Of a stretch of DNA of 64,000 bases, positions 7,219 through 42,690 are shown in pieces. Positions within the stretch are counted from its first letter, which is position 1. The number at the start of each line of letters is the position of its first letter. The position numbers and the translations under genes are program-made. The notes under the pieces are model-generated. The model had not been told where the DNA came from and did no database searches. It saw nothing but the letters and a program-made list of their open reading frames with translations. Source of the DNA: Persicirhabdus sediminis (GTDB taxonomy: Bacteria > Verrucomicrobiota > Verrucomicrobiia > Verrucomicrobiales > Akkermansiaceae); contig NZ_JAENIM010000039.1 in assembly GCF_016595495.1 (NCBI RefSeq), positions 416,659-480,658 on the forward strand, written 5' to 3'.

Positions 7219-7249
7219 GGGCGTCTGCATATTTTGCAGGCGTCCATTT
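7219..7249 (+). terminator. Intrinsic terminator of aqpZ
   Basis: GGGCGTCTGC (about 7219-7228) pairs with GCAGGCGTCC, including two G-T pairs. An A and eight T residues follow. Confidence 0.85.
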
Positions 7250-7417
7250 TTTTTGCCCTTATTTGTAGGATGGATAATGTGTGATAGATTTGCACGTGAG
7301 TCTACTAAGTAAGCCGCCTGCAGTGATTTGCTAGTGTTTGAAATCAAACAAGTAGCAGGATTAGCTGGGGAGTTAGAGTTGCGCGACCAGCGCAGAATCA
7401 TGATCATGCGACTGTTT

Positions 7418-9439
7418 ATGCGGTTTTGGGATATTGAAATAGTTTCGAAAAAATCAATCATATTGGTTTTGGGATTAGTGTGTTTATCGCCATCAGCATG
7501 GTCACAGGCTAGTTATAAAATTGGTGATTTCGAAACTGAGGTAGTGCGGCTGAATAATGGGCAGCCTATCATCTCGCGAGCTACCTTTACGGCTGCTGGG
7601 TTAGAAGTTGACAATACTGATGCAGGGAAACATGTGGGTGGCTATAACATCAATGGACCTAGCTTGATTCGTGTGCCGAGCTGGCTGGCTGATGATGAGA
7701 AGGCGGATCCAACAGCCGAGTATTATCTGTATTTCGCCGGTCACTATGGTCGTAGCATACGCATGGCTTGGGCGGCTAACATTGAGGGCCCCTATACATT
7801 ATTTAATAATGAAGCTGGCGATGATGATGGTTATCCTGGTTACGGTGTGCTGGACGTTAATAGCAACATTGACTTAGTTGATGATAACCAGCTGAAGGCT
7901 AGCGATTGCGCTAGTCCTGATGTGATCGTGGATGAGGAAAACGAGCAGTTGTTGTTATTTTTTCATGTCAATTCGAGTACTGGTGATGAATCGGCGTTAG
8001 GCAATAACTATTTTAATACTGGTGGACAAACTAGCTGGGTGGCGACATCGCGCACGGGGCTGAATTTCAATGGTGGCGATGATGTGGAGTCGGACACCTA
8101 TGGTGATGGCGAGCCTGGGCACGGAATCAAGGCGCAGCGTCTAGCAAATGCCTACATGCGTGTTTTCACAGACCCTAATGGCCACTATCATGCATTCACT
8201 AACTACGGGCCAATATGGAAGGCGCCAGCTGAAGGGATTTGGTCAGCAGCCTGGGAGCATGAAAAATGGGCGATCAATTCAGGTACAACTGGCAGCACTG
8301 CCGATGCGCAAGTGACTGGCGGAGGAAACCCTGTGTGGATGAACCTTTATAACAATTATCTAATCAACGGACTAACGACCGAGCGCGGTTACGCTGGATT
8401 TAGTGGGGATAGCGGGCTTTATAATCAGAATGCGCCACGTACCGGAGCTCCGCGCCACTTTGCCACGCGCCAGCTCAATGATGGCGTGACTCTTGAGGTT
8501 TATTATACCTGCCGCGGTGAAAAACCTGAAAGCGTTTATAAAACGACGATGGACATGAGCACTGGTGATTACACCAGCTGGACGACTGATGTCACTGGCG
8601 ATAGCTGGGTGCACGAGCGCGTTCTTTTTCCAGAAGAGGAATGGGAGGGGGCGATACGCTCGCTGGCGTATTCCAAAAATGGTGGTGAAGCTAACAAGCG
8701 CGCTATTCGCGACCCCGATGTGTTCACTGACGTCGACGGTAAAACTTACCTGTTATACTCAGCTGGGCCGGAAGAGGGCATTGGCATTGCGAGCTTAAAT
8801 AACAAACCGGTTGCTGTGGCAACTATCAGCTCGTTAGAAGTGGAGGGCGGAGAATTGGTCTATTTTGATGCTAGCGAGTCCTACGATACCGATGGCTCTA
8901 TTGTCAGCTATCAATGGGATTTTGCGGATGCAAGTCGGCCTTCACAGCGTATTGCCCACACCCATGCGTTCCAGCTGGCTGGTGTGTATCCTGTTATGCT
9001 CACAGTGATAGATGACCTTGGTGGAGAAAACTCGCTTGTGGTCAATGTGACGGTCAACAGCTCAGTGCAGCATAGTGATGGAGATATCATGCCTGATAGC
9101 TGGGAGTTGGCAAATGGCTCAGACCTTAACGCTGCGGATGGTCAGCTGGATAATAACGGCAATGGTTATACTAACGAAGATGAGTATATTTTAGGTATGC
9201 AGGCTAAGGCTTCTAGCGCGGTGTTTTTTGTACAGTCACAGATTGACGACGGTAAGAAGGTAACCGTCAGCTGGCCAAGCATACACGATAGATTTTATGC
9301 CATTTATAAATCGACTGACTTGTTAAATTGGCAGCTGGTGGCTGAGGATATTGAGCCAACGGTGCCTGTGAACCAGATAGAGTTTGACCTACAAGATGAG
9401 GATAAAGTTTTCATCCGCGTGGAGGCGAGCATGCCCTAG
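7418..9439 (+). CDS. Secreted beta-propeller/PKD protein, paralogue 1 of a tandem triplet (glycoside hydrolase-like)
   Basis: The ATG at 7418 gives a signal peptide ending SAWSQA and aligns the start with both paralogues downstream. The frame is open further upstream. Residues about 35-450 form repeated beta-propeller blades. Recurrent phrases are YYLYFAGHYGRSIRMAWAA, ASPDVIVDEEN and RDPDVFTDVDGKTYLLYS, which resemble five-bladed GH43/GH117-like folds. A PKD domain follows (about 465-550), then an EF-hand-like DGDIMPDSWE...DNNGNGYTNEDE stretch, and a C-terminal module VSWPSIHDRFYAIYKSTDL. The likely role is extracellular binding or cleavage of a polysaccharide. The catalytic residues and substrate cannot be assigned from sequence alone. 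Confidence 0.75.
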   Translation: MRFWDIEIVSKKSIILVLGLVCLSPSAWSQASYKIGDFETEVVRLNNGQPIISRATFTAAGLEVDNTDAGKHVGGYNINGPSLIRVPSWLADDEKADPTAEYYLYFAGHYGRSIRMAWAANIEGPYTLFNNEAGDDDGYPGYGVLDVNSNIDLVDDNQLKASDCASPDVIVDEENEQLLLFFHVNSSTGDESALGNNYFNTGGQTSWVATSRTGLNFNGGDDVESDTYGDGEPGHGIKAQRLANAYMRVFTDPNGHYHAFTNYGPIWKAPAEGIWSAAWEHEKWAINSGTTGSTADAQVTGGGNPVWMNLYNNYLINGLTTERGYAGFSGDSGLYNQNAPRTGAPRHFATRQLNDGVTLEVYYTCRGEKPESVYKTTMDMSTGDYTSWTTDVTGDSWVHERVLFPEEEWEGAIRSLAYSKNGGEANKRAIRDPDVFTDVDGKTYLLYSAGPEEGIGIASLNNKPVAVATISSLEVEGGELVYFDASESYDTDGSIVSYQWDFADASRPSQRIAHTHAFQLAGVYPVMLTVIDDLGGENSLVVNVTVNSSVQHSDGDIMPDSWELANGSDLNAADGQLDNNGNGYTNEDEYILGMQAKASSAVFFVQSQIDDGKKVTVSWPSIHDRFYAIYKSTDLLNWQLVAEDIEPTVPVNQIEFDLQDEDKVFIRVEASMP

Positions 9440-28865: not shown

Positions 28866-29867
28866 TTAAGGATGGTTGATCTCAGTTTCTAGCTTTCCTA
28901 ACGATGTAATAATTTCGTCAAAAGTAGGTCGATAGTCGCCGAAAATCATCTCTTGCATCGCGTCATAATCTTTTTGCATGGCGGTGAGGACATGCACCGG
29001 GGGTACGAGTTTAAGTGACCCCGTAACGGCGTCATCATAGTTAGCCCAGTTACGCGGGTAGAATTTCTTCTTAAAGAGCACGACATCATTAAGGAGCTCT
29101 AGCTTTCTTAATGCAGACGCTTTTAGCGATGCATCGGCAGCCATCATAAAGAGATCGTAATAGTGGCGTGAGTAACGTGTGGGGGTAGGGGAGTCTTCGG
29201 GGCGGTTAGCTTCCTGATGAAGGATGGTAGCTTTTTCCCAAAAAGTGCGCTCTGCATCAATGGCCTGAACCATGCTATGAGGTTCATTAAATAGCTGCGG
29301 AAAATGCTCTGCTGCGTATGGCGTCACCTTATGCTTCGAATGCGGTAACCATGAGGCTAACGGGCCGATTTCAAGTTGGATGTATGGTAGTATGCCTATA
29401 GGGTTTTCTATCTTGGGGTATCTGACCCGTACAACGTGACCTTGATCTTTCTCATCAGCTTTGATATCTAGCTCACAATGGGAGCCAAGCGCTTTCTTTA
29501 GCCATGGCATCATCGTTTCAGCAATGTAAGTGATGGCGTTGTCGTTGAGGGTTTCGTTGATCTTGCTTTGCTGTCTCTTTGAGCGATCATCCATTGGGTT
29601 ATGGTCCCGAGTCACTTGTCTCCAATCAAGAACGAGGTCGACGTCTTCTGAGAAGCGAGTGATCAAGCCAAAGACTTTTGATAGACTGGTTCCGCCTTTA
29701 AAGATAAGTAGTTTGGAGAGTTTGTTGTGCTCGAAGAGCTGTTTCAGCGTCCAGCAAACCCAAAAATCTTTCTCGATAATAGCCACTGAGCCTATACCCA
29801 TGTGCGCCGCAGTCATGGAGAAGAGTTCATGGCGTTCCTGCGCGGAAAATGCGGCCACTCGGTTCAT
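28866..29867 (-). CDS. AbiEii-family nucleotidyltransferase toxin
   Basis: The 333-aa protein has the AbiEii/AbiGii nucleotidyltransferase core. FKGGTSLSKVFGLI (about residues 57-70) is the GS-type motif, and FSEDVDLVLD (72-81) carries the paired aspartates that bind metal. Relatives cause growth arrest, some by modifying tRNA 3' ends, and abort phage infection. Its start overlaps the end of the upstream AbiEi-like gene by four bases (ATGA), as in toxin-antitoxin pairs. It is the last gene of the island and lies next to the selC-like gene. Confidence 0.85.
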   Translation of the reverse strand: MNRVAAFSAQERHELFSMTAAHMGIGSVAIIEKDFWVCWTLKQLFEHNKLSKLLIFKGGTSLSKVFGLITRFSEDVDLVLDWRQVTRDHNPMDDRSKRQQSKINETLNDNAITYIAETMMPWLKKALGSHCELDIKADEKDQGHVVRVRYPKIENPIGILPYIQLEIGPLASWLPHSKHKVTPYAAEHFPQLFNEPHSMVQAIDAERTFWEKATILHQEANRPEDSPTPTRYSRHYYDLFMMAADASLKASALRKLELLNDVVLFKKKFYPRNWANYDDAVTGSLKLVPPVHVLTAMQKDYDAMQEMIFGDYRPTFDEIITSLGKLETEINHP

Positions 29868-30475
29868 GATTCTGTGCGCTTTGAGATTTGTAGGATGAGG
29901 TCACTGACCCAGCCAGGGGCTGTTTTGGTGTCACGCAGGATTTTCTTCCACATTATTGGCGACCACTTCGCCGCTAGCTTTTGCTGAATTTCTTCATCGA
30001 TGCGTGCTTGCCCTAATGCTTTGAGAGATTGAACCACCAGCTCACTTTCCTTGTGCTTGAATACTGATTCTTTGAGTGTTCTTTTTTTGAAGGTGAGCTC
30101 AAGATTTCCGATCTCATACGTTTTACTGGGTCCGTCGGAGAGGTAGACGCTTTGCGCGGGAACTTGGCTTGATAGTCCTAGGAGATTGAGTGCGGTATTT
30201 TCTGAAGGCTGAATACGCCAACCAGACCTGCGGGCCAGGGCGCGTGCGAGTTGATCAAGGTCTGGCCCCATCTCTGTGTTGAGCAGCTTGCTGATGCGTG
30301 GGTAGTCGTAGACCCCTCGCAAAACCCTACGAATGGTTCCTTTTGCCGCCAATTCAGATAGAGCTTTGCGTATGTCGGCATCACTGCCCAGATCTAAAAA
30401 GTCAATCTTGGAAAACGCCCAACCCCTATGGTTGCCGTATATCCTTGCAGATGTCTTTTTTTCAATAGATTGCAT
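29864..30475 (-). CDS. AbiEi-like (DUF6088-type) antitoxin/transcriptional regulator
   Basis: The 203-aa protein opens with a winged helix: FSKIDFLDLGSDADIRKALS then LAAKGTIRRVLRGVYDYPRI. This is the N-terminal DNA-binding domain of AbiEi-like antitoxins. The C-terminal part includes SVYLSDGPSKTYEIGNLELT. AbiEi proteins repress their own operon and counter the AbiEii toxin. The four-base overlap with the AbiEii gene supports pairing. The gene is about 140 bp downstream of hsdR, beyond a short 7-bp-repeat tract, and may have its own promoter. Confidence 0.8.
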   Translation of the reverse strand: MQSIEKKTSARIYGNHRGWAFSKIDFLDLGSDADIRKALSELAAKGTIRRVLRGVYDYPRISKLLNTEMGPDLDQLARALARRSGWRIQPSENTALNLLGLSSQVPAQSVYLSDGPSKTYEIGNLELTFKKRTLKESVFKHKESELVVQSLKALGQARIDEEIQQKLAAKWSPIMWKKILRDTKTAPGWVSDLILQISKRTES

Positions 30476-30569
30476 GCCTTTGTGATAACATTTTTTTTCA
30501 CAAGTTGAAGGGCGTTTTTGTGAAATTTAGTCGAGATCGGCGGCAGCCTCGCTGAATTTACCGCCTTTG

Positions 30570-30606
30570 GCGAATGATGAATATTGAGGGCTGAATGGTG
30601 ATGCGA
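30570..30606. repeat. Degenerate heptanucleotide repeat between hsdR and the AbiE pair
   Basis: GCGAATGATGAATATTGAG and GGCTGAATGGTGATG follow the same 7-bp phase as the tracts at 34215-34245, 35325-35365, 38998-39050 and inside hsdM. The shared entry sequence is (G)CGAATGATGAAT. Confidence 0.5.
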
Positions 30607-30615
30607 CTTGGCTGG

Positions 30616-33600
30616 CTAGCGGCTTTCCTGATACTTCTTAAAATTCTCCGCCTGCTCAAAGATCTCTTTATAGACTTCGTCGCGGTCGATCATTGGTGGG
30701 TAGCCCTTATCGGCTAGAGCCATGATGAGATCTACTTTCAGCTCGGCCTTGATATCAGCGCGCTGGCTCCAGTCGGTGTATTTGGTTTTGTCGTCGACGA
30801 TGGACTTTACTTTCTCCGATAGAGGAATGAGTTTTTCCTCTGGGTAGTCGAACTTGTATTTGATCGCTAGAGCCTTGAGTATGTCGTAGAAGGCTTTCAC
30901 TTCCATATCGGCAATGCCATCTGGCATATCGCCTTGGTTGTATTCTTTGGCCAGCTCATGGAACATTGCCAGCATCTCTTCTGCGAGGTCGTCGATGCCT
31001 TCAGCTGTCCAGGCTTCGCTTTCTTTGCGCTCGTTGTATTTCTCGACGAGTTTATTGAATTTTTCGGAGAAATCCACGCCCTTCATTTTGTTCACCTTTT
31101 TGAGCTCAGAGATCGCTTTTTTGAGAAGTTGCTGGAGCAGCTTTGCCTTGGTATTTGGCAGCTGGATATTGGAGATCTTGGTGAGGTAGTCTTCATTAAA
31201 GAGGTCGATCTGGCTGGCTTGGTCATCGCCGAGCTTGAAGATCTCTTCAACGCCGTCGCTCTTGATGGCTTCGTCTATCATTTCCCGCACCTTGGCATTC
31301 ATCTGGGCGGTGTCCGGAGCATCGCCTTTGGTGAGCTTTGCAATGATCGAGCGGATCGCTAAGTAGAAGTGGATTTGGTCGCGCTCTGCTTCGGTGATTT
31401 CTTCCGCACCACAGCAGACATCGTAGGCGGCTTTCAGGCGCTTCACTAGTTGCATGAAGCGGTGTTCGATCTTGTCGGTGAGCTGGACGAACTCGGAGGC
31501 TCGGTTGAGGCAGTCTAGCTGGGCGACGGCATCACCAGCGAAATACGCGGTGCTGTCGAATACGTGAAACATCCTCGCCAGTAGGTCGAGGTGGTTGCGG
31601 ACTTCGGTAATCGAGAGCTGAACGTCCTCGAAGTTGGTGGCATCCGTTTTTGAATACATAGCCAGCGCTTGATTCATGGCTGACTTGATACCGAAGTAGT
31701 CAACCACCAGCCCCTTGTCTTTGCCTTCGAACTTGCGGTTCACGCGGGAGATGGTTTGGATCAAGTTGTGCTTCTGCACGGGTTTGTCGATGTAGATGGT
31801 ATCGAGGAATGGCACATCAAAGCCGGTCAGCCACATGTCCACTACGATGGCGATTTTAAAGTTCGACTGTGGATTCTTAAATTGGCCGTCGAGCATCTTG
31901 CGATATTCCGAGGAGCCGAGCACATCGTAGAGCTCCTTCGTGTCATCCTTGCCGCGAGTCATCACCATCTTGATGCGCTCCATCGGTTTGATTTGTTTCT
32001 TCTGCTGGTCGCTCAGTTCCACGCCTTCGGCGGCGACTCGCACCTCTGCCCATTCTGGGCGGAGTTTGATCACTTCCTTGTAGAAATCGTAGGCAATCTC
32101 ACGGCTGGAGCTGACGAACATCGCTTTCCCCATAATGGTGGAGCCCTCTTCGATACGAGTCTCGTAGTGGGTGACAAAATCCTTAGCCAGTGCTGCCAGC
32201 CTATCTTTGTCGCCGAGGATGCTCTTCATGCTCGCCATGACCTTTTTGCTTTGCTCCACAGCGTAGTCGCTAGAGCCAGCCTCCATGCACCGCTGGTAGT
32301 AGGCTTCGATCTCCTTGAGTTTCGAGTTGTCAGCCAGCACTTTGGCGGCGCGTCCTTCGTAGACCAGGCGTACGGTGATCTCATCCTTCACCGACTCCGC
32401 CATGGTATAGGAGTCGACCACTTGGCCAAACACATCCAGAGTGGCATCAATTGGGGTGCCCGTGAAGCCAACGTAGGTCGCGTTTGGTAAGGAGTTGTGC
32501 AGGTGCCAGGCAAAGCCATAGGATTTCTTCACCTCGCTATCGGTGATGGTTAGCTTCTGGTCGAGATTGACCTGGCTGCGGTGGGCCTCGTCGGAAATAC
32601 AGATCACGTTGCAGCGATCGGTGAGCAACTCGGCATCTTCATTAAATTTATGAACTGTAGTGAGAAATACGCCGCCACTCTTGCGGCCTTTGAGTTTCTT
32701 TCTCAGGTCACTGCGGCTCTGCACACTCTCAATATCCGCGTCGCCAATGTAGCCTTTAGCATTAGAAAATTGGTCAGAGAGCTGGGAATCGAGATCGGTG
32801 CGGTCGGTGATGAGCACGATGGTAGGGGAGGAGAACTCCACGCTCTTCATCAGCAGCCGAGCCAGAAAGAGCATGGTGAAGCTTTTGCCACAGCCGGTTG
32901 CGCCAAAGTAGGTGCCACCCTTACCATCACCTTCAGGTTTACGGTGAGCCGCTATGTTGGCAAACAGCTTGCGGGCGGCGTAGTACTGTGGGTAGCGGCA
33001 GACAATTTTTTCCTCGGTGCGTGAGACATCGGGCAGGTAGACAAAGTTGCGGATCACATCGATCAAGCGGCGTTTATCGAACAGGCCATTGATCATCGTG
33101 TGCAGCGAGTTGATGCCATCTTTTTCAATCACTTCATCGCCTGTGACCTTGCGCCATGGATAGAAGAAATCGTATTTGGCGAAGATGCTGCCAACCTTGT
33201 TATTCACGCCATCAGAGATCACGCAGAAGGCATGGTACTTCATCAGCTCGGGGATGTCGCGGGCGTAGCGGGTGGCCAGTTGCACGTAAGCATCGTGAAT
33301 CGTCGCCTCTTCGCGGATCGCGCTCTTGAATTCAAAGACCACCAGCGGCAGGCCATTGATGTAGAGAATGCCATCCGGAATGCGTGTCTCGTGGCCGACG
33401 ATCTCCAGCTGGTTGACGATCTTGAAAATATTCAGTCCACCGTGGAATTTTGCCGGCTCCTCAGCCACGATGGAGGGCACTTCACCGGGCTTCGGTTCCC
33501 AGAATGCCTCTAGCTCCGCGTAATCTATCAGCTGGACGTACAGGTCCTTCTGGCTGCGATCCTCCCGCTTCAGCAGGAAACCATCACACACCAGCTTCAT

Positions 33601-33858
33601 GATCGCCTTGTTGCTGGCGTAGAGGTCGGCAGCCGAGTACGCATCCAGCTGCTTGATCACAGATTCTATTTCACCCGCCGTAATCTCATCATCGGCGTAT
33701 TTTCTTGCGAGGAAGGACCGCAAGTCAGACTTGATCAAGACCTCTTCAGGAGCACGCGTGATCGCGGATCCCAGTACGTGAGGGAACCCTTGCTCGCCGA
33801 GGAGGCTGATGATGGCGGATTCTAGGGCAGCTTCGCTGAATTTTGAATGCTGAGTCAT
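30616..33858 (-). CDS. hsdR: Type I restriction enzyme, R subunit (HsdR)
   Basis: The ATG at 33858 gives 1080 aa. Residues 162-178 hold the nuclease motif PDGILYINGLPLVVFEFK (D...ExK). The SF2 translocase follows, with Walker A GATGCGKS (319-326), DEAH (423-426) and TYVGFTGTP. The helical C-terminal part binds the methylase. It cleaves DNA lacking the HsdM/S methylation after ATP-driven translocation. The first residues MTQHS derive from a 7-bp repeat tract and are fused to KFSEAALESA. The latter looks like the true family start, seen upstream as two truncated fragments (MKxTEAQL). hsdR is separated from hsdS by seven kilobases... more exactly 3.7 kb of accessory genes. Confidence 0.95.
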   Translation of the reverse strand: MTQHSKFSEAALESAIISLLGEQGFPHVLGSAITRAPEEVLIKSDLRSFLARKYADDEITAGEIESVIKQLDAYSAADLYASNKAIMKLVCDGFLLKREDRSQKDLYVQLIDYAELEAFWEPKPGEVPSIVAEEPAKFHGGLNIFKIVNQLEIVGHETRIPDGILYINGLPLVVFEFKSAIREEATIHDAYVQLATRYARDIPELMKYHAFCVISDGVNNKVGSIFAKYDFFYPWRKVTGDEVIEKDGINSLHTMINGLFDKRRLIDVIRNFVYLPDVSRTEEKIVCRYPQYYAARKLFANIAAHRKPEGDGKGGTYFGATGCGKSFTMLFLARLLMKSVEFSSPTIVLITDRTDLDSQLSDQFSNAKGYIGDADIESVQSRSDLRKKLKGRKSGGVFLTTVHKFNEDAELLTDRCNVICISDEAHRSQVNLDQKLTITDSEVKKSYGFAWHLHNSLPNATYVGFTGTPIDATLDVFGQVVDSYTMAESVKDEITVRLVYEGRAAKVLADNSKLKEIEAYYQRCMEAGSSDYAVEQSKKVMASMKSILGDKDRLAALAKDFVTHYETRIEEGSTIMGKAMFVSSSREIAYDFYKEVIKLRPEWAEVRVAAEGVELSDQQKKQIKPMERIKMVMTRGKDDTKELYDVLGSSEYRKMLDGQFKNPQSNFKIAIVVDMWLTGFDVPFLDTIYIDKPVQKHNLIQTISRVNRKFEGKDKGLVVDYFGIKSAMNQALAMYSKTDATNFEDVQLSITEVRNHLDLLARMFHVFDSTAYFAGDAVAQLDCLNRASEFVQLTDKIEHRFMQLVKRLKAAYDVCCGAEEITEAERDQIHFYLAIRSIIAKLTKGDAPDTAQMNAKVREMIDEAIKSDGVEEIFKLGDDQASQIDLFNEDYLTKISNIQLPNTKAKLLQQLLKKAISELKKVNKMKGVDFSEKFNKLVEKYNERKESEAWTAEGIDDLAEEMLAMFHELAKEYNQGDMPDGIADMEVKAFYDILKALAIKYKFDYPEEKLIPLSEKVKSIVDDKTKYTDWSQRADIKAELKVDLIMALADKGYPPMIDRDEVYKEIFEQAENFKKYQESR

Positions 33859-33868
33859 GAATGCTGAA

Positions 33869-34231
33869 TTATTTTCGTTGTTGGGCTGTTTTGACGATGC
33901 TTGTGAGTATACGCACGACCTCATCGGCTTCGGTTTTAAGACCTTCAATTTTATCGGAAGTTACAAGCTCGGTAGCCTCCAAGAGCTTGATCCAATAAAG
34001 TGTTTCTCGGGCTTCTTTCCGTGAGATTGACATTTTCGCGATGAAATCCGCTTTGCTCTGGCCTGCTTGAGCTTCTTCAATGTTAGCTCCAATTGAAGTC
34101 CCTGAGCGAAGTAATTGGTTGGCTAATGTGCGAGGAACACCACTCTGCTTTTCAAGAAATTGGCAGAGCTTCACTATTCGCACGGCGAAATCAAAACTAC
34201 GTTGGCTTATGTCAAATTCAGCATTCATCAT
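33869..34231 (-). CDS. Four-helix bundle protein (S23 rRNA-intervening-sequence family)
   Basis: The 120-aa protein is all helical. Its typical motifs are FDFAVRIVKLCQFL, LANQLLRSGTSIGANIEEAQ, and KADFIAKMSISRKEARETLY. Members are small cytoplasmic proteins of unknown function that often sit as passengers in restriction-modification loci or rRNA intervening sequences. Two adjacent ATG codons (34231 and 34228) lie inside a 7-bp repeat tract, so the start codon itself comes from the repeat. The gene follows directly on a 20-codon remnant of an hsdR-like start. Confidence 0.88.
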   Translation of the reverse strand: MMNAEFDISQRSFDFAVRIVKLCQFLEKQSGVPRTLANQLLRSGTSIGANIEEAQAGQSKADFIAKMSISRKEARETLYWIKLLEATELVTSDKIEGLKTEADEVVRILTSIVKTAQQRK

Positions 34232-34294
34232 TTATAATTCATCATTCGCCCCATGGGCGCCGGCTGATTTGAGTTGGGCTTCGGTGAATTTCAT
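34232..34294 (-). pseudogene. 20-codon remnant resembling the start of hsdR (copy B)
   Basis: The frame encodes MKFTEAQLKSAGAHGANDEL and a stop. Its ATG overlaps the rhuM stop by one base (TGATG), and GGAAGGAG lies upstream, so it looks like a coupled start of a former downstream gene. MKFTEAQL resembles KFSEAAL at the intact hsdR start. It runs into the 7-bp repeat (GCGAATGATGAATTAT) and stops just before the four-helix gene. Confidence 0.55.
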
Positions 34295-35337
34295 CACTTT
34301 GAATCTCCTTCCTTACTGAGATCTTCGAGGGTTTTGATGGAGTCAGAAGCGCCTCGTTCTTCCATCGAGATTCGTCTTCGTTCGGCGAATTGATCGTATT
34401 GCGTTTTGGCAGCCTCGTCGGCATCTTTCTTGGTCACTTTACCTCCGTGGGTGAGGACATCGCGGTCATTGAACTTGAGAAATTCGTCGAGCTTGGTTTG
34501 CCAGTCTTGCAGGAAGATCTGCTTGCGCCGTTTTGCCTGGTCGAAGGCAAAGTCCAGCCACATCACGACGATGCGGTTCAGCTCGTCGATTTCGTCTTCC
34601 TGCAGGTAGTTCTTGGCCACGGTCACATCGCCTTTGCGAACGATCTCTCCCTTCCAGACCGTCAACCCCATGTTCGGCAGGGAAGCGTCGGCGCGCTCGG
34701 CGATGAGTTCTGCGGCGGTGTGGCCGGTCGCGGCGAAGTGGAGCTTGTTCTGGATGATCTGGAAGAATTTGACCGAATCTTTTCGCGACGGCTCGTAGTC
34801 GGCGGCGAGGGCGAAGATTTCCCGGACTCGGAGATACACACGTCGCTCGCTGGCCCGAATGTCCTGAATACGGGCGAGAAGCTCATCGAAGTAGTCTGGG
34901 ACGGCCGAGCTGCCTGAGATGTCGGGATTCTTGAGCCGCTCGTCGTCCATCGTGAAGCCCTTGACGAGGTATTCCTGTAGGCGGGTATTTGCCCAGCGGC
35001 GGAACTGAGTGCCACGGGGGGATTTTACCCGGAAACCGACGGCAAGAATGGCTTCCAGATTGTAGTGTTCAATCTCCCGTTTGACTTCTCGAGAGCCCTC
35101 CAATCGAACTATCCGGAATTTCCGGATAGTTGCTTCTGACGCGAGTTCCCCCTCCTCATAGAGATTTTTCAGGTGCTCGTTGATCGTGCGCACATCTCGA
35201 TCAAAGAGTTCTCCCATCAAGGCCTGTGAGAGCCAGATCGTCTCGTTCTCGAATCGGCACTCGACCCGCGATTTACCGTCCTCGGTCGTGTAGAGGAGGA
35301 ATTCGCCGGCTGGTGTGTCTGGTAATTCATCATTCAT
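34294..35337 (-). CDS. RhuM-family protein
   Basis: The 347-aa protein matches the RhuM family by FLLYTTEDGKSRVECRFENE, TIWLSQALMGELFDRDVRTI, EHYNLEAILAVGFRVKSPRG and TQFRRWANTRLQEYLVKGF. The family's biochemical role is unknown. Members are frequent passengers inside type I restriction-modification operons. Its first residues, MNDEL, are encoded by a 7-bp repeat tract. A short hsdR-like remnant lies three bases upstream. The local DNA is GC-rich compared with the CBASS genes just upstream. Confidence 0.88.
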   Translation of the reverse strand: MNDELPDTPAGEFLLYTTEDGKSRVECRFENETIWLSQALMGELFDRDVRTINEHLKNLYEEGELASEATIRKFRIVRLEGSREVKREIEHYNLEAILAVGFRVKSPRGTQFRRWANTRLQEYLVKGFTMDDERLKNPDISGSSAVPDYFDELLARIQDIRASERRVYLRVREIFALAADYEPSRKDSVKFFQIIQNKLHFAATGHTAAELIAERADASLPNMGLTVWKGEIVRKGDVTVAKNYLQEDEIDELNRIVVMWLDFAFDQAKRRKQIFLQDWQTKLDEFLKFNDRDVLTHGGKVTKKDADEAAKTQYDQFAERRRISMEERGASDSIKTLEDLSKEGDSK

Positions 35338-35340
35338 AAC

Positions 35341-35403
35341 TTAGCATTCATCATTCGAACCCTTGAGTTCGCCTGCTTCGAGTTGGGCTTCGGTTAACTT
35401 CAT
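35341..35403 (-). pseudogene. 20-codon remnant resembling the start of hsdR (copy A)
   Basis: The frame encodes MKLTEAQLEAGELKGSNDEC and a stop. It starts nine bases after the stop of the E2-like gene and ends three bases before rhuM. The first eight codons are nearly the same as in copy B at 34232-34294 and resemble the intact hsdR start. The fragment then runs into GCGAATGATGAAT-like heptads. Confidence 0.55.
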
Positions 35404-35411: not shown

Positions 35412-36035
35412 TTAGGGAATTCGGAGTTTAAGAGGGATTTTTCTCAAAAGAGCTAAGTCTCTACTTTTACAGCAAACCTTGTATTTTTTTCCTGAATCAC
35501 ATGGGCAGAGCTTATTTGAATATCTGCCTTTTAATACTTTTGAAGGTACCATGCTCATAGCTTGTATAAGACCAGGATGGCCATGTGCGAAACCATGCCA
35601 CGGTGGTTCTCCATGATGTTGTAGAAAAGAATACCAGTAGAAGAATGGGATGACTTTTTCATAAAGAAAGTTGGTCACTCCATTCCACTGATATTCTGGG
35701 AAAATGCCCAGGCAGCAGCTCCCATCAGATGTATCAATATGGCGCTTGCTGTCATCAATTTCTCCCGCCTTAAGACTCGTAGCTATGCGTTCTGATTCTT
35801 CATAAACGACCGGGAAGCCAAAAGTATCCCTATTACTGAAATCAATTTTGATTTCATAGCTGTCCTCGATGTAAGATTCGCCGCAGTTAGAATAGATGAT
35901 CTTCTGGTCTTTGCGGTCACAGCTACATGCGAAGGATAGTGTCCCCCAAATGCAGTTTCGTGCACGGCTAAAATTTAGACCGGGAAACTCCAGGTCGAGC
36001 GCCTGTAGATCACTCTGTTCTACTGTGAACGCCAT
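35412..36035 (-). CDS. CBASS E2-like protein with C-terminal SEC-C zinc motif
   Basis: The 207-aa protein has an N-terminal beta-meander followed by RHIDTSDGSCCLGIF. Here H99 and C107/C108 fit the His and catalytic Cys of bacterial E2-like proteins of short type II CBASS. A helical segment with FLYEKVIPFFYWYSFLQHHG comes next. It ends in a SEC-C motif LCPCDSGKKYKVCCK (Cys 177, 179, 188, 189), which binds zinc. No E1 or JAB gene accompanies it. The start overlaps the end of the cyclase gene by 16 bp. By family knowledge, such E2 proteins prime the cyclase by a ubiquitin-like conjugation. That role here is inferred. Confidence 0.7.
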   Translation of the reverse strand: MAFTVEQSDLQALDLEFPGLNFSRARNCIWGTLSFACSCDRKDQKIIYSNCGESYIEDSYEIKIDFSNRDTFGFPVVYEESERIATSLKAGEIDDSKRHIDTSDGSCCLGIFPEYQWNGVTNFLYEKVIPFFYWYSFLQHHGEPPWHGFAHGHPGLIQAMSMVPSKVLKGRYSNKLCPCDSGKKYKVCCKSRDLALLRKIPLKLRIP

Positions 36036-37003
36036 GGGTTCGATGCTGCGACCGCCTTGTTAGAGTGGTTTGCTGATTTTGTTTCTTCTTCTTTTTTTAG
36101 CCCCAGAGGGAACCTATCTCCTAGCGATTTTCTCCACATTAGAGACGCCTCATACTCGCAATCTTCGTTTTTAGCTAGGTCAGCTTGGTTTAGAAGCTTC
36201 GTAAACTCATCTTTTACATTATCGGCCTTGTATCCGGACAGTAAGTCTTCGTGGCAAGGTGTGGTAGGTCTGTAGCAGCAGAAAAATCTATCTAACTCTT
36301 CCTTGATGGCCCTCACAGTCTCGCGTAGTGCTGCATCATCATTCGAGTTTGAAACGTAGTTGTTGCATGCAAGAATAGTGAGAATAAATCCGGAAGGTAG
36401 TTTAAGACTACTATTTTGTGTTTCTCTGTGATCCTTCCAAGCCTTCAGGTAACGTATAATTCTACGCAGTTGTCCCACTTCGCTTGAATCAGATATTTTC
36501 TGGTCTACCCAGTTCTTAAACTCTCTCGGGTCGCTATCTGTGTAGCCCTGAGACTTGTGTGCTAGCTGCGGAGTGTCATCGTCATTTTCCATCCAGTAAG
36601 AAGGCAAATCGATATGGTGCCCATCGGCATATGTGACCCTTACGCATGTTGATTTATCTATCACTGGCTGGTCAGTATGACCTTCGACAGCCGCCTTTAT
36701 ACGGTCATGATATGTTTCGGGGTTTTTTCTATCAGCCTCCTTACAGATGAAATACACGCCATCATCGAGATCGTACTCTTCGGTAGGGTCTCCATTTACA
36801 TCCTCACCCTTTATAGGGTTCAAGTTTGTATCAAGAGGGTAAGAACCTTGAGAGTGGAACTTAGGATCGCTCCAATCCTTTTCTTCGAAATAGTCACGAA
36901 TTTTCTGTCTTAATGCATCTCGGTTTGATTCCAGTTTCTTCTTCTTAGAATCTGTGAGCTTAATTTTTTTATTAAAGCTAATGAATAGGTTGTGGGTGTT
37001 CAT
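36020..37003 (-). CDS. CBASS cyclic-oligonucleotide synthase (CD-NTase)
   Basis: The 327-aa protein has the nucleotidyltransferase site of DncV/cGAS-like enzymes: GSYPLDT (GS at residues 53-54), EYDLDDGVYF (Asp78 and Asp80) and the third carboxylate in GHHIDLPSYW (Asp132). It would make a cyclic di- or trinucleotide when phage infection is sensed, activating the effector encoded upstream. The C-terminus ends SNPWRSQ and not in a Gly or Ala, the usual acceptor end in CBASS conjugation systems. The gene starts two bases after the effector stop and overlaps the E2-like gene. Confidence 0.9.
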   Translation of the reverse strand: MNTHNLFISFNKKIKLTDSKKKKLESNRDALRQKIRDYFEEKDWSDPKFHSQGSYPLDTNLNPIKGEDVNGDPTEEYDLDDGVYFICKEADRKNPETYHDRIKAAVEGHTDQPVIDKSTCVRVTYADGHHIDLPSYWMENDDDTPQLAHKSQGYTDSDPREFKNWVDQKISDSSEVGQLRRIIRYLKAWKDHRETQNSSLKLPSGFILTILACNNYVSNSNDDAALRETVRAIKEELDRFFCCYRPTTPCHEDLLSGYKADNVKDEFTKLLNQADLAKNEDCEYEASLMWRKSLGDRFPLGLKKEEETKSANHSNKAVAASNPWRSQ

Positions 37004-37005: not shown

Positions 37006-37605
37006 TTATGAGGTTTGTTTTGTAGCTGTCATGCAGCCTTTTGTTTGAGGGTCTCTATTCGTAAAATAGTAACCATCTAAAGTGGTGAGAGTATCGGTTT
37101 GATCTATATGCAGAACATTCATTCCATCGTGTGGATTTAAAGTATCTCCATTGAGACAGGAGCCAGGGTTGTGATAGTAAAAATATAGTGAATGGTCTCC
37201 AACTTCATCTGTGCTAATGAAAGCCTCTAAGCTTGTTGATTTAGTGGGAGGCTCTTCGGTTTCCTTTTTGGGAAATGCAGTCGTTACCTTGATTTTTGAG
37301 CACGTTTGCTTGATAAATAATGAACATTCACGGCTTTCCCTAGTGCCTGTCCTATTGAACTGTATATTGCCTATATATGTGCCGTTTAAGTCTGGGACTG
37401 TATTGAGTTTGTCGAGCCAGGGGATGTTCCACAGGTAATTGTCGTAAAGCCACAAAAGGAGACCAACTCCAACGCTCGGGCCAATTCCCAAAAGTATGTC
37501 GTTGTCCCACGCATACCTTTTTAAAATTAAAGCTAAACCAGCCCATGTGAGAGCAATTAATGAAACTAAAGGGCCAGATTTATAGTATCTAAAATTGATA
37601 TTCAT
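37006..37605 (-). CDS. Cap15-like CBASS effector (2TM plus beta-barrel)
   Basis: The ATG at 37605 gives 199 aa. Two membrane helices, LVSLIALTWAGLALILK and ILLGIGPSVGVGLLLWLYD, lie within the first 60 residues. The rest is beta-rich and starts PDLNGTYIGNIQF, followed by CSLFIKQTCSKIKVTTAF. This is the pattern of the SMODS-associated 2TM beta-barrel effectors (Cap15). On binding the cyclic nucleotide such effectors disrupt the inner membrane and kill the infected cell. Its ATG overlaps the hsdS stop (ATGA), so it is translationally coupled to the restriction-modification operon. Confidence 0.82.
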   Translation of the reverse strand: MNINFRYYKSGPLVSLIALTWAGLALILKRYAWDNDILLGIGPSVGVGLLLWLYDNYLWNIPWLDKLNTVPDLNGTYIGNIQFNRTGTRESRECSLFIKQTCSKIKVTTAFPKKETEEPPTKSTSLEAFISTDEVGDHSLYFYYHNPGSCLNGDTLNPHDGMNVLHIDQTDTLTTLDGYYFTNRDPQTKGCMTATKQTS

Positions 37606-38984
37606 AATACCAGTAACGGTTTGCATTCGGGGATGCGGAGTTCTCTAGAGATGAGTTTGGGAAGAAGAGTGTCGCGGAGTTTAGTGAGGGTTTCGGTTGA
37701 AGCGTCCAGCTGCAGTTGCTTCTCCTGCGTTGATTTTAGGACTTTGTCTGTAAAGAGTTCGACTAGCTCTAGGTTAGGCGGCAAAGCCACCTGAATCCCA
37801 GCGAGGACATCGAAAGTGATTTGCGGGAAGGTTCCTGACCGAGACTCTGCTAGCATTTGCAGGTGATCGATTGTGGAATCCTGTTTTAGAATCAAATAGG
37901 CGAACAATGAGCTAATCTCGCTGGTTGCCCTAAGGACCATTAGTTTCGTGGAGACTACATGTTGGGCGCCATCGATATGAACGTAAGCAAAGCGTCGGTT
38001 TCTGGGACGAATCTCGCTGTAAAGAATGTCGTGTTTCTGAATCGATTTCTTCGCCTGCCCGGGAAGCCCAGCTGTTGCCGAGTAGTCTGCGTGTAGGAAC
38101 CTTCCATCTAGAATGTCGCCTGTATTGAGGAAGATGATCTCATCGACAGTCTTCAATGGGTAAGTGTCAGAAACTGAGCGCAACATTTGCCCCATTTGTT
38201 TCGCCGCCCAACCCTCAGGAATCCAGCCTAGTTCTTCGGTGAATTGGAAGGCGGCGGGGAAGGCTTTGGCGGCTTCGCGGTTCGCGGTGCCGTTGGCGAG
38301 TGCTTTCTTGCGGACTTCGGCGCGGGGGGCGAGTTCGTCGGGGATGGGGTTGCCGGCGGCGAGGGCATTGTCGATCACCGGGTCAAAGTCCACAAACCAG
38401 CTTTTGAAGAGCGCCTGCGCCATCCCTTCCAGCGTCGCATTCATCCGCCGATTCAACTCAATCTTGTCATCGAAGGAGTCTAGGATGTCAGTGATTTTTC
38501 TTATCTCATCGTCCGGAGGGCACCTAAAATAAAAATCCTCGATCGCATCTTTTGTTATCATGCGAACGGTTGTGCCTTTTGAACACGACAAGATCCGATT
38601 CCTGTATTCAGCCCCTCGCAGCAACCAATACAAAAAGCGATTCGGGATATCGGAGTGATTGGTGAGCTTATAGAGGTTAGTGGCGACGATTACATCGCGA
38701 CCTTCCAAGTATTCAGGGATAATCGCAGGGAATCCGAGGATGGGGAGGTTGTCGGACTGTTGTCTTGTCGCGATGACAATGTCGCCTGGTTTCAATCTGT
38801 GGGTCTCGGGGAATTCTCCACCATAGTTTCTACAGCCGTTGTCGAGAAAGCGTTCTGAGAACGAAACGCATCCCATTCCTACAAGTTTTGAGTCACCCTT
38901 GCCGATGAAGCTACCTTTGTAAGAGAAACCTCCTCGGATCTCGATCAGATCGCCCAGCCGGACGGTTTCCCAACTATTTCCCAT
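37602..38984 (-). CDS. hsdS: Type I restriction-modification specificity subunit (HsdS)
   Basis: The 460-aa protein has two target-recognition domains. The first runs from WETVRLGDLIEIRGG to about residue 165, and the second from LGWIPEGWAAKQMGQML to about 400. Each is followed by a conserved helix: DDEIRKITDILDSFDDKIEL and LVELFTDKVLKSTQEKQL. The end, KLRDTLLPKLISRELRIP, is typical. It determines the bipartite recognition site for HsdM and HsdR. A 7-bp repeat tract separates it from hsdM, and its stop codon overlaps the start of the CBASS effector. Confidence 0.93.
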   Translation of the reverse strand: MGNSWETVRLGDLIEIRGGFSYKGSFIGKGDSKLVGMGCVSFSERFLDNGCRNYGGEFPETHRLKPGDIVIATRQQSDNLPILGFPAIIPEYLEGRDVIVATNLYKLTNHSDIPNRFLYWLLRGAEYRNRILSCSKGTTVRMITKDAIEDFYFRCPPDDEIRKITDILDSFDDKIELNRRMNATLEGMAQALFKSWFVDFDPVIDNALAAGNPIPDELAPRAEVRKKALANGTANREAAKAFPAAFQFTEELGWIPEGWAAKQMGQMLRSVSDTYPLKTVDEIIFLNTGDILDGRFLHADYSATAGLPGQAKKSIQKHDILYSEIRPRNRRFAYVHIDGAQHVVSTKLMVLRATSEISSLFAYLILKQDSTIDHLQMLAESRSGTFPQITFDVLAGIQVALPPNLELVELFTDKVLKSTQEKQLQLDASTETLTKLRDTLLPKLISRELRIPECKPLLVL

Positions 38985-38997: not shown

Positions 38998-39050
38998 CGG
39001 TGCGCCTGCGGCGAATGATGAATGATGAGTTATGAATGTTGAATTATTCT
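38998..39050. repeat. Degenerate heptanucleotide repeat between hsdM and hsdS
   Basis: The plus strand reads GGCGAATGATGAATGATGAG then TTATGAATGTTGAATTATTC, in phase with a 7-bp period. The same entry sequence GCGAATGATGAAT opens the other tracts of the island. It overlaps the last codons of hsdM. Confidence 0.6.
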
Positions 39051-40735
39051 TCATAGCCGAGGGATTTGAGGTTTTGGCGGATCGTTTGGTCTAGTGCGGT
39101 CGCTTCCTTCATCTGAGAAAAGAGAGTGGCGCTGAGGTCCTTCATTTTTGTTTCGAATGGAATCCCATCGTCTTCGAGCGCGGCTGCGCCGACATAGCGG
39201 CCGGGGGTGAGGACGTAGTCGTGAAGTCGGATATGTTCGAGAGTGGCGGATTTGCAGTAGCCGGGGACGTCTTCGTAGGTGGAATGATGAGTGCTGAGTT
39301 CTGAATGCTGAGTTTTCAATTCATCACTCATCATTGATAATTCATCATTCGCGCACGTGCTCGCTCTCCACGAGTGATAGGTCTCGGCAATCTGCGCAAT
39401 ATCTTCCACCGACAATTCCTTTTGCGTGCGCGAGATCATGGAGCCGATCTTGCGGGCATCAATGAAGAGGGTCTCGCCCTCGCGATTGCGGTAGTCGCGC
39501 TCGCTGTCGGCCTTTTTGTTTTTGGTCAGGAACCAGAGGCAGACGGGGATCTGGGTGGTGTAGAAGAGTTGGCCGGGCAGGGCGATCATGCAGTCGACGA
39601 GGTCGTTCTCGACGAGCTTTTGGCGGATCTCGCCTTCGCCCTTGTTGCTAGTGGACATGGAGCCGTTGGCGAGGACGAAGCCAGCGACGCCGTTTTCGGA
39701 GAGTTTGCTCACCATGTGGAGAATCCAGGCGTAGTTGGCATTGCCGGTGGGCGGGGTCTCGTAGCCGTTCCAGCGTCCGTCGTTGACGAGTTCGTCGGGC
39801 CCGCGCCAGTCTTTCAGGTTGAAGGGGGGATTGGCCATGATGTAGTCGGCCTTGAGGTCGGGGTGTTGATCCTTGAAGAAGGTGTCGGCGGGGACTTCGC
39901 CGAGGTTGGCGGAGAGCCCGCGCACGGCGAGGTTCATCTTGGCCAGCTTGTAGGTGGTGGCGGTGAACTCCTGCCCGTAGACGGAGATGTCCTTCTTGTT
40001 GCCGTGGTGGCTTTCGACAAACTTGATGGACTGGACGAACATGCCACCGGAGCCACAGCAGGGGTCGTAGATTTTGCCGCGGTAGGGCTCGATCATTTCG
40101 GCGATGAGATTGACCACGCACTTCGGGGTGTAGAACTCGCCACCGAGCTTGCCCTCGGAGGCGGCGAATTTGCCGAGGAAGTATTCGTAGACGCGACCGA
40201 CGGTGTCCTCCTCCTTGTCCTCGACGGTGTCGATGTTGTTGATGGCATCAATGAGGGCGGAGAGCTTGCTGCCATCGAGCCCGAGACGAGAGAAGTAGTT
40301 GTCGGGCAAGGCGCCCTTGAGCGAGGCATTGCTCTTCTCGACGTCGGTGAGGGCGGAGTCGATCTTGATGGCGATGTCGCCCTGCTTAGCATGCTGCTGG
40401 ATGTAGGACCAGCGGGAGGTCTCTGGCAGATAGAAAACGTTCCGCATGGTGTAGAACTCGACCATGTCAAGGTAGTCCTGCTTGCCCTCGGCCACGAGCT
40501 CGGCGCGGCGCTCCTCGAACTTGTCGGAGACGAACTTGAGGAAGATCAGCGAGAGCACGACGTGTTTGTATTCCGACGATTCAACGGAGCCGCGCAGCTT
40601 GGTGGCGGTGTCCCAGAGAGATTCCTCGAAGGATTTATTCACGACTTTCTTAGCGGCTTTTTTGGCCGTCTTCTTTTTAACCGCTTTTTTTGCGGCTTTG
40701 GTGGCCACCTTGCGGGCGGATTTCTTGGCTGGCAT
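39044..40735 (-). CDS. hsdM: Type I restriction-modification methyltransferase (HsdM) with H1-like tail and a repeat insertion
   Basis: The 563-aa protein methylates adenine at the HsdS-defined site. It has DPCCGSGGMFVQSIKFV (AdoMet motif I) and the catalytic NPPF in YIMANPPFNLKDW. Two features are unusual. Residues 1-34 are a lysine/alanine tail (KKAVKKKTAKKAAKK) like histone H1-type proteins. Residues about 459-486 (from STCANDEL to HHST) are a run encoded by 7-bp repeats, placed in frame before the conserved YEDVPGYCKSATL. It is the first gene of the operon, so its promoter should lie at 40736-41000. Its DNA is GC-rich compared with the CBASS genes. Confidence 0.93.
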   Translation of the reverse strand: MPAKKSARKVATKAAKKAVKKKTAKKAAKKVVNKSFEESLWDTATKLRGSVESSEYKHVVLSLIFLKFVSDKFEERRAELVAEGKQDYLDMVEFYTMRNVFYLPETSRWSYIQQHAKQGDIAIKIDSALTDVEKSNASLKGALPDNYFSRLGLDGSKLSALIDAINNIDTVEDKEEDTVGRVYEYFLGKFAASEGKLGGEFYTPKCVVNLIAEMIEPYRGKIYDPCCGSGGMFVQSIKFVESHHGNKKDISVYGQEFTATTYKLAKMNLAVRGLSANLGEVPADTFFKDQHPDLKADYIMANPPFNLKDWRGPDELVNDGRWNGYETPPTGNANYAWILHMVSKLSENGVAGFVLANGSMSTSNKGEGEIRQKLVENDLVDCMIALPGQLFYTTQIPVCLWFLTKNKKADSERDYRNREGETLFIDARKIGSMISRTQKELSVEDIAQIAETYHSWRASTCANDELSMMSDELKTQHSELSTHHSTYEDVPGYCKSATLEHIRLHDYVLTPGRYVGAAALEDDGIPFETKMKDLSATLFSQMKEATALDQTIRQNLKSLGYEE

Positions 40736-41028
40736 GTATGTGAAGTGAGTTTAGTGACTCTGGGTCAGTGGATTGTGTGAATCGTTGCCCGCGTCAGGTG
40801 ATAGATGGGGGTAACAAGTTTTATTGATAACAGATAATGTGCTAAATCGAAGCTGATAGGGGAAGAAGAAAATTGTAGGATTTGTTGTGTGATAGAATTG
40901 CGAGATCTGGCAATCCTTGAGGTTGAAGTGTGGAGTGAAAGAATGAGTTTTGTTAGATTGGATCTAACTAGCTGGCGGAGTGGTGTTTTCTGGCGTCCCT
41001 TCAGGACGCGTTAGGGGGCTGAGTATTC
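40736..41028. other. Upstream region of the restriction-modification operon
   Basis: Nearly 300 bp without a gene. It should contain the hsdM promoter on the minus strand. GCGTCC-CTTCA-GGACGC (about 40994-41010) is a small hairpin. I see no integrase, no copy of the selC 3' end, and no regulator gene here. Confidence 0.4.
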
Positions 41029-41080
41029 TCGGGGCTGAAGCCCCGAGCTTTGTTCTTGAGCGCTTTCAGCGCAGTGGCGC
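41029..41080. repeat. Dispersed palindromic repeat, copy 2 (GGGGCTGAAGCCCC type)
   Basis: GGGGCTGAAGCCCC, GAGCTTTGTTCTTGAG and GCGCTTTCAGCGC follow the same order as the copy at 4605-4655. It abuts the 75-bp tandem array. Confidence 0.6.
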
Positions 41081-41320
41081 AATCCCTACGGGATTGAAGA
41101 GAGAAGGGTGAGGAGAGAAGAGTGAATTCCTGCACGATGAAACCTGGCTGGCGGCAATCCCTGCGGGGTTGAAGAGAGAAGGGTGAGGAGAGAGGAGTGA
41201 ATTCCTGCACGATGAAGCCTAGCCTGTGGCAATCCCTACGGGATTGAAGAGAGAAGGGTGAGGAGAGAAGAGTGAATTCCTGCACGATGAAGCCTAGCAG
41301 GCGGCAATCCCTGCGGGGTT
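41077..41320. repeat. 75-bp tandem repeat, about 3.2 copies
   Basis: AATCCCTRCGGGRTTGAAGA recurs at 41081, 41156, 41231 and 41306, exactly 75 bp apart. Each unit holds the palindrome CAATCCC-TAC-GGGATTG, a purine-rich stretch GAGAAGGGTGAGGAGAG and GAATTCCTGCACGATGAA. Because 75 is divisible by 3, a spurious frame runs through it. The whole unit is conserved, so it is not CRISPR. Confidence 0.85.
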
Positions 41321-41358
41321 GGTGGAGGGGGCTATTGTAAGGTCTTGTTAGCTAGGAG

Positions 41359-42375: not shown

Positions 42376-42449
42376 ATACCAGATCGTAGATCGCGCTGTC
42401 ATGTTAGCTTTGAGCCAAGAGCGGTGCTAAAGCACACGCAGTCTAGATG

Positions 42450-42690
42450 CCGTACCTTCATCCCGCGTCTGCGGGAGAACCTTAGGCCGCAGGCCGTACT
42501 TTAAGCATAGCGAACCTTAGGCAAAGCCGTACTTTCAGCGTAGCGCACCTTAGGTGAAGCCGTACCTTCATCCCGCGTCTGCGGGAGAACCTTAGGCCGC
42601 AGGCCGTACTTGCAGTGTAACGAACCTTAGGTGAAGCCGTACCTTCATCCCGCGACCGCGGGAGGACCTTAGGCGAAGCCTAACTTTTTA
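42450..42690. repeat. Array of alternating 33- and 44-bp palindromic units
   Basis: CCGTAC starts at 42450, 42494, 42527, 42560, 42604 and 42637, giving spacings of 44, 33, 33, 44 and 33 bp, all multiples of 11. The 44-bp units carry the hairpin CCCGCGTCTGCGGG. The 33-bp units carry TTTCAGCGTAGCGCACCTTA or close variants. All end in a CCTTAGG-type segment. The array runs up to and over the last codons of the gene at 42680-43456. Confidence 0.75.

Follow-up and report, generated by a model that had tools for sequence, protein, structure and literature searches.

Truncated hsdR starts in a type I restriction locus of Persicirhabdus sediminis recur before intact hsdR in related loci

Within a 64,000-nucleotide stretch of the Persicirhabdus sediminis genome (assembly GCF_016595495.1, contig NZ_JAENIM010000039.1, positions 416,659 to 480,658 of the forward strand; hereafter the window, in which position 1 is the first letter), a locus that its open frames identify as type I restriction-modification carries two short fragments of hsdR ahead of the intact gene. 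Each fragment is a truncated hsdR start. Scars of this kind are found again before an intact hsdR in several groups of bacteria, where the space between scar and gene holds an accessory gene (encoding RhuM, IVP, AlbA_2/HATPase, Fic, AbiE or other proteins). They are probably the scars of stepwise gene capture, in which the accessory gene and an hsdR would have been acquired together through homology on one side. Defence genes are known inside type I restriction operons, and stranded hsdR starts would form a readable stratigraphy of the order in which these defence systems joined.

hsdR-start fragments in the window

On the minus strand, Pfam and PADLOC assign the gene order hsdM, hsdS, a trio of the cyclic oligonucleotide-based antiphage signalling system (CBASS), rhuM, a four-helix IVP gene, hsdR, an AbiEi-like gene and AbiEii. 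Remnant 1 (35372–35403, minus strand) comprises hsdR codons 1–10 (MKLTEAQLEA) at the head of an open frame extending to 35341, and remnant 2 (34260–34294, minus strand) comprises codons 1–11 (MKFTEAQLKSA) in a frame extending to 34232. The frames at 35341–35403 and 34232–34294 translate as MKLTEAQLEAGELKGSNDEC and MKFTEAQLKSAGAHGANDEL, each ending at a stop codon; the hsdR-derived part is confined to codons 1–10/11, beyond which both frames consist of G+C-rich DNA and repeat. The likeness of both frames to the intact hsdR start, which a first-pass annotation had pointed out, is borne out by a profile built from 13 HsdR starts (12 relatives and the intact one of the window; cut-off 12 bits), against which the remnants score 13.1 and 17.6 bits, respectively. 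HsdR starts of relatives resemble MKFTEAQLESAII and are read from related loci as MKFTEAQLESAIIELLG and close variants. Reversed sequences gave no match of at least 12 bits to any of four profiles. A pattern covering both starts, written from those two fragments, matches twice in the window and never in 100 shuffles; the profile is the better test, because the pattern derives from the fragments themselves.

Remnant 1 begins 8 bases past the stop codon of the CBASS E2-like gene, and remnant 2 shares one base with the stop codon of rhuM (TGATG). Because they adjoin or overlap the preceding stop in this manner, each looks like the former next gene of the operon. Both fragments abut 7-bp repeats, as the annotation had described, and arrays of such words (heptad arrays) occupy both junctions. 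A short G+C-rich palindrome followed by an array spans 35325–35371 on the minus strand and holds the start codon of rhuM (34294–35337, minus strand; PF13310; PADLOC candidate defence family PDC-S05 at 5e-160), whose product begins MNDEL. At the second junction, a short palindrome and array (34215–34260, minus strand) form the left arm of a unit around the IVP gene and contain its start codon, from which the four-helix protein is read as MMNAEF (33869–34231, minus strand; 23S_rRNA_IVP, PF05635, 7.6e-26; sole PDB sequence match 2RLD). An inverted array at 33838–33872 forms the right arm (33-nt arms, 79% complementary) and is the source of MTQHS, with which the intact hsdR starts (30616–33858, minus strand; MTQHSKFSEAALESA...; Pfam); HsdR of Rubritalea profundi (locus L048) begins with MTQHS too.

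A third fragment lies downstream of hsdR. Remnant 3 (30542–30559, minus strand), hsdR codons 2–7 (KFSEAA), reads AAATTCAGCGAGGCTGCC and stands behind a short heptad array (30571–30601) and ahead of the AbiEi-like gene (29864–30475, minus strand; DUF6088; Pfam, PADLOC) and the AbiEii gene (28866–29867, minus strand; Pfam, PADLOC). In L048, DNA akin to the region before the AbiEi gene of the window likewise follows a truncated hsdR.

Recurrence of truncated hsdR starts

A scan for HsdR yielded 53 loci, reduced to 48 when those with a missing hsdR start or a partial match were dropped (L022, L047, L055, L057 and L058); the 45 with at least 1 kb of upstream sequence form the denominator. A second, truncated hsdR start lies upstream on the same strand in nine of the 45 (L007, L008, L010, L015, L023, L026, L048, L050 and L056), the L015 scar amounting to seven residues only (14.5 bits). 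Four further genomes (G240, G093, G320 and G786) have a scar before an hsdR start. All 13 scars of relatives are upstream and on the same strand, and the reversed control gave none. Relatives also have uninterrupted hsdR starts, among them L092, where rhuM overlaps the intact start by 4 bases (the contig ends inside this hsdR). The first-pass proposal that the fragments mark successive insertions ahead of hsdR is supported.

Searching 387 genomes of the window's phylum with an N-terminal profile produced 46 rows, of which 12 were short 5′ matches; behind three of the 12 (G240, G093 and G320) an hsdR start follows the scar, the G320 contig ending inside it. The phylum of L013 (395 genomes) contributed 29 rows, including the G786 scar, which lies 0.85 kb before an intact hsdR, and short 5′ matches in G770 and G392:C43. 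The corresponding hsdM-start control gave four short 5′ fragments among the 150 matches listed, of which G186 is a frameshifted copy and G020 lies at a contig end. Short 5′ rows are accordingly enriched for hsdR (12/46, or 8/46 after sorting, versus 4/150 hsdM matches listed; Fisher p 7e-6, or 0.001 after sorting).

Mirror-image 3′ fragments exist as well and are rarer than 5′ scars. They lie downstream of an intact hsdR in three of the 39 loci with at least 1 kb of downstream sequence (L032, L036 and L048), with a weak case of 15 residues in L038. With the C-terminal profile, 3′ fragments came up in G216, G227, G047 and G001, where the piece fetched has no further hsdR of the family, as did short 3′ matches in G320:C505 and G121. 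An internal match of a long N-terminal profile in L092 (842–916, 12.1 bits) is probably due to chance.

The copies in relatives bear on whether the short frames could be functional leader peptides that couple translation into the accessory genes and hsdR. They do start at an ATG close behind the previous stop, which remnant 2 overlaps, but the L015 copy has ATA for ATG, that of L026 a nonsense codon and that of G303 three stops, and the lengths and 3′ parts of the frames are unrelated; a leader function is scarcely credible.

Genes between scar and hsdR

Pfam identifies AlbA_2/HATPase_c_4 proteins in the interval between scar and hsdR in L007, L010, L015, L023, L056, G240, G320 and, partly, L050; AbiEi/AbiEii in L008; Fic in L026, L048 and G093; and RhuM in G320. 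By BLAST, G240 has the first 107 residues of rhuM in this interval and G320 has two IVP genes. The interval gene of G786 has no Pfam match and by eye resembles a small transposase.

Several loci show where the incoming DNA begins. In L050, a scar of 18 codons is joined in frame to HATPase_c_4 from profile position 33, and this mid-gene joint suggests that the incoming end is arbitrary. The L056 scar is fused to VLTKLRDTLLPKFIPGELRA, which by eye is like, yet differs in detail from, the tail of the locus's own HsdS, VLTKLRDTLLPKLISGELETK; Pfam reports only HSDR_N there. This HsdS-like fusion points to incoming DNA from an hsd locus. A Fic–hsdR unit is common to L026 and L048, and the shared sequence begins within a few bases of the end of the L026 scar. 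The order in L015 is an AAA_13 gene, scar, AlbA_2 and hsdR; in L045, L052, L054, L013 and L046, other genes (judged by eye from length and sequence) directly precede the same AlbA_2–hsdR pair. G240, which belongs to the window's own family, is a second stratigraphy: an ATPase-like gene (by eye) is followed by a 56-codon scar of hsdR, then by the beginning of rhuM, AlbA_2 and hsdR, and one of the joints lies inside rhuM. In G278, rhuM is cut at about residue 115, an IVP unit lies between inverted arrays and hsdR is fused to an array at Lys2.

Two other arrangements were seen in these regions. In L092 (G320; region 2346–8389), a 1,223-residue protein with a reverse-transcriptase domain (RVT_1, 6e-9) is encoded before the hsdR scar. 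In L095 (G271; 4676–7918), two copies of a 179-residue gene flank a segment that comprises rhuM, about 54 codons of an hsdR start and an AbiEi gene.

Origin of the scars

Stepwise capture would proceed as follows. An accessory gene arrives on DNA that also carries an hsdR; downstream, this DNA would pair by homology with the resident hsdR, and its other end would join illegitimately anywhere in or before the 5′ end of the resident gene. The resident start would be stranded as a scar, and the hybrid hsdR would retain a complete reading frame. The strata of the window, in operon order, would then be hsdS; CBASS, formerly beside an hsdR of which remnant 1 is left; rhuM, which formerly overlapped an hsdR now reduced to remnant 2; the IVP unit; the intact hsdR; and the AbiE module, which a third hsdR start precedes. 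Heptad arrays lie at the joints in this lineage and may offer short homology there. The scars would identify a possible anchor of homology, and they predict that hsdR alleles travel with their neighbours. The observation of truncated starts is right and more general than the window alone, and the capture mechanism is put forward with moderate strength.

The known process with these properties would be homology-facilitated illegitimate recombination, described as combining homology at one end with a joint, usually of 3–10 bp microhomology, at the other, and as adding foreign genes beside a shared gene (PMC3240628). The account there concerns experiments in three transformable species and conjugation in E. 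coli, whereas the present case is argued from scars and a mosaic hsdR, with no donor DNA found.

The ends of the scars and of the incoming DNA bear on the first-pass proposal of a dedicated cassette system by which genes enter at the hsdR start and a start codon is restored. Its premise that repeats supply start codons stands. Both scars of the window end at codon 10–11 and run into the same palindrome–heptad form, and in the window, L048 and G278 alike the join between heptad array and hsdR falls at Lys2, where the fragment after the array at 30571 also begins. A dedicated system with a fixed insertion point does not hold up in the relatives, however, where scars break off at points between about codon 8 and codon 145, GAATGAT-type words occur at the joint in one of the nine loci (L010; the search covered words of this type) and incoming DNA begins mid-gene (L050) or in an HsdS-like tail (L056). 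Such varied scar ends and incoming ends fit one-sided homologous capture better than site-specific insertion; a precise cassette is not supported by either set of ends and appears improbable.

Comparison of each scar with hsdR genes of other loci provides a second line of evidence. Seven of 14 scars are nearer to the hsdR of another locus than to their own. Among 52 hsdR genes, the own copy ranks 47th for remnant 1 and 25th for remnant 2, 18th for L015 (over 22 bases only), seventh for L026, fifth for L090 and for L092, and second, in a near tie, for L008. HsdR of the window is also mosaic: identity to L048 is 63–67% over residues 1–120 and 95% at residues 181–240, and a recombination-break test with four choices of partner puts the break at 151 for one and at 129 for another (p about 0.0005). 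Together with the L056, L050 and L015 arrangements, the ranks and the mosaicism favour joint capture of accessory gene and hsdR over insertion of a bare cassette.

Leftovers of a tandem or target-site duplication of one and the same hsdR would account for the seven scars whose own hsdR is nearest (L007, L010, L023, L048, L050, L056 and L091) and for remnant 3, which differs from the intact start at one of 18 bases. Duplication is nonetheless a very improbable source, given the ranks of remnants 1 and 2; the genes upstream and downstream of the scar differ in the loci read, and scar lengths vary.

Several observations weigh against capture by one-sided homology. Those seven scars and remnant 3 belong here, as local duplication gives the same result. 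No junction has a donor with near-identical DNA, so that both the homologous and the illegitimate end are deduced from their products. Both window scars end within about one codon of each other, which is more regular than free illegitimate joining predicts. The break positions in HsdR depend on the partner, the other two choices placing them at 75 and 694 (p 0.001 and 0.0015), and mosaicism is general: 14 of 17 triplets reach p < 0.05, including L051, in which no scar was found and the break is near the 3′ end, so that mosaicism alone is not specific. Among the 12 short 5′ matches in the phylum, three (G322, G048 and G287) result from internal deletions, one (G028) has the look of an hsdR that is divergent or frameshifted, and five (G046, G303, G271, G084 and G186) have no downstream hsdR of this family in the piece fetched.

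Heptad arrays

Arrays of GAATGAT, GAATTAT and GAATGCT occur at both junctions, at the hsdR start, in the hsdM–hsdS gap (39011–39047, by word search) and inside hsdM, with the short one behind hsdR. Allowing at most one mismatch, CGAATGATGAAT matches seven times in the window versus 0.44 expected; six matches lie in this cluster and the one at 56802 is a stray. In the 4.17-Mb genome, exact three-word arrays of GAATGAT type are confined to this locus (nine overlapping matches in three arrays), and other patterns agree. Elsewhere the host's words are GAAGGGT and GAAGAGT, with 52 exact overlapping matches, or 86 with at most one mismatch, on six contigs. Because the GAATGAT-type arrays are confined to it while the host uses other words, the hsd locus looks imported from a genome with a different repeat dialect. 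The hsd locus of G320 (L092), with a 203-bp heptad array of 29 units before an IVP gene, indicates that loci with such a dialect exist.

The arrays before rhuM and the IVP gene (E3 and E4) contain at least one ATG and at least one stop in every frame of E3 and in two of three frames of E4, the first frame of E4 having stops only. Since stops and starts are spread over the frames, the arrays may end and restart translation whatever the phase. None of seven palindromes before arrays is individually significant (best p 0.075).

The prominence of these repeats raises the alternative that the joints of the window arose when dispersed heptad arrays recombined with one another, or through movement of a heptad-bounded IVP unit, with no part played by hsdR homology. 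An array stands at every joint before hsdR; the IVP unit has inverted arms, with the same form in L092 and G278; IVP genes elsewhere have inverted 7-bp arms; and the scar joint of L010 holds such words as well. This alternative leaves unexplained, however, why an hsdR start is stranded each time and why eight of nine scars in relatives are without such words. We regard it as unlikely for the joints as a whole, though one of them may stem from an IVP unit bounded by heptads.

Further repeats were noted in the window: a 75-bp tandem repeat of host-type words (GAAGAGA GAAGGGT ...) next to a short palindrome at 41001–41321, another repeat block at 42449–42674, and, at 39282–39350, arrays in both orientations that translate as part of the HsdM frame (...NDELSMMSDELKTQHSELSTHHS...).

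IVP units

IVP four-helix genes are often bracketed by inverted 7-bp arrays, the word varying from unit to unit. The gene is present in 182 of 387 genomes of the window's phylum (E up to 1e-10). From these, 70 loci were sampled (the 30 best, including the window's own, and 40 down the ranked list), 69 of which had enough flanking sequence. Inverted matches between the two flanks of one gene average 18.7, versus 8.6 for flanks of different genes, and in 32 cases (about one expected) a flank matches its own partner best among all 69. The inverted own-flank match reaches the 99th percentile of mismatched pairs in 29 of 69 loci, compared with five in direct orientation. Identity within IVP flanks is 0.416 at lag 7 and 0.389 at lag 14, versus 0.290 and 0.278 in 74 flanks of other frames. 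A second sample, drawn from 27 other genomes of which 11 contributed 28 loci (24 usable), gave averages of 14.5 and 8.6, the own partner best in eight cases and a lag-7 identity of 0.384. By this test, about half of the units do not stand out. Some (L140, L156 and L166 among others) have direct arrays instead. The host's second IVP gene has arms of GAAGAGT type (by eye), a word unlike that of the window unit.

The 30-bp copies of hsdR that flank the IVP unit of the window, alike at 22 of 30 bases, suggested target-site duplication, but we rejected this as a feature of IVP units in general. Only six of 95 IVP loci have a flank match of at least 25 bits on the same strand (0.12 expected). Three of the six (L121, L166 and L175) are repeat arrays and L213 looks by eye like neighbouring paralogues; L124, with an HsdM-like tail, and perhaps L148, with a prepilin-like start, look by eye like real gene duplications. 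The scarcity of such duplication counts against a dedicated cassette system as well.

In L124 (G375), the IVP unit sits at the 3′ end of an hsdM-like gene (by eye), and a second HsdM-like tail (SAKLEAAIRANLKGL) follows the unit. For the window's unit, special RNA folding was also considered and rejected: the arms pair in the predicted fold, but its z of −0.73 is no better than shuffles.

Tentatively, IVP genes might form the core of a widespread, unrecognized class of mobile units, each composed of one small gene flanked by inverted arrays of 7-bp words that vary between elements; the arrays would serve as a frame-blind stop/start adaptor and allow the unit to land in an operon without silencing the next gene. 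In restriction loci, such units and the remnants of their arrays could then act as joints at which defence genes are added or swapped. The bracketing arrays provide a genomic context for a large family without known function.

Comparison with known systems

The units found in rRNA genes as intervening sequences have inverted repeats at their ends. The IVP unit of the window is comparable to a 23S intervening sequence in its IVP-family open reading frame and inverted end repeats; unlike it, the unit sits between rhuM and hsdR in a protein operon, and the arm words differ between elements. Because it lies outside any 23S rRNA gene, we do not classify it as an intervening sequence. The IVP family is known from rRNA intervening sequences (PF05635; PMC11270868), and the likeness to the units described there lies in the presence of an IVP gene inside an inserted unit.

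The rlo genes (2005 work, as cited in PMC5183652) resemble the present case in the extra genes placed in hsdS–hsdR and hsdM–hsdS gaps and in extensive rearrangement. The window likewise has open reading frames between hsdS and hsdR, a likeness of position, and the passages on rlo genes in that paper contain no mention of stranded hsdR starts or of repeats at the joints. The RptR-hsdMS-darTG2-hsdR island of E. coli E2348/69 has a defence system between hsdS and hsdR, a site that its authors call a potential recombination hotspot; the description of the island includes neither a mechanism nor scars (PMC12255303). Heptanucleotide repeats of TAACTGA before start codons in Beggiatoaceae (PMC4679880) are likewise 7-bp direct repeats that end beside start codons; they differ in the word and in having one inverted repeat in 170 sets, and the account of these sets mentions no link to IVP or hsd. 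In the open-licence PMC literature, we found no published account of hsdR-start scars, nor of 7-bp arrays around IVP genes elsewhere.

Locus layout and variation of hsdR

The N6_Mtase, Methylase_S, HSDR_N and T1R domains score above the Pfam cut-off within one operon, as expected of type I restriction-modification, with hsdM at 39044–40735 and hsdS at 37602–38984 (both minus strand; hsdS by Pfam). HsdR of this family is present as a single copy in the host genome. CBASS is represented by a cyclase and an effector in one operon (PADLOC models Cyclase, 2TM effector and E2; Pfam SMODS and Cap15), all on the minus strand: the Cap15-type 2TM effector (37006–37626; PF18153; PADLOC Effector 2TM), the SMODS/DncV-like oligonucleotide cyclase (36020–37003; Pfam SMODS, PADLOC) and the E2-like protein with a SEC-C tail (35412–36035; PADLOC E2 at 6.3e-21, SEC-C by Pfam).

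HsdR itself varies in length among the relatives. In L043, L044, L056 and L091 (G093), hsdR has an in-frame insert of about 460–590 bases after residue ~236. In L056 and L091 this insert opens with a repeat-coded peptide (HNPHPQPLSQGEKG...) and by eye resembles a small endonuclease, which we take to be a candidate member of DUF559. HsdR of L048 (6001–10002) has in-frame inserts, two with the repeat-coded GSNGAPAPLN(D/N)S(H/N)KDAAGATS, and the truncated copy upstream has one too. In L006, the HsdR frame extends about 165 residues beyond the usual C terminus into other sequence.

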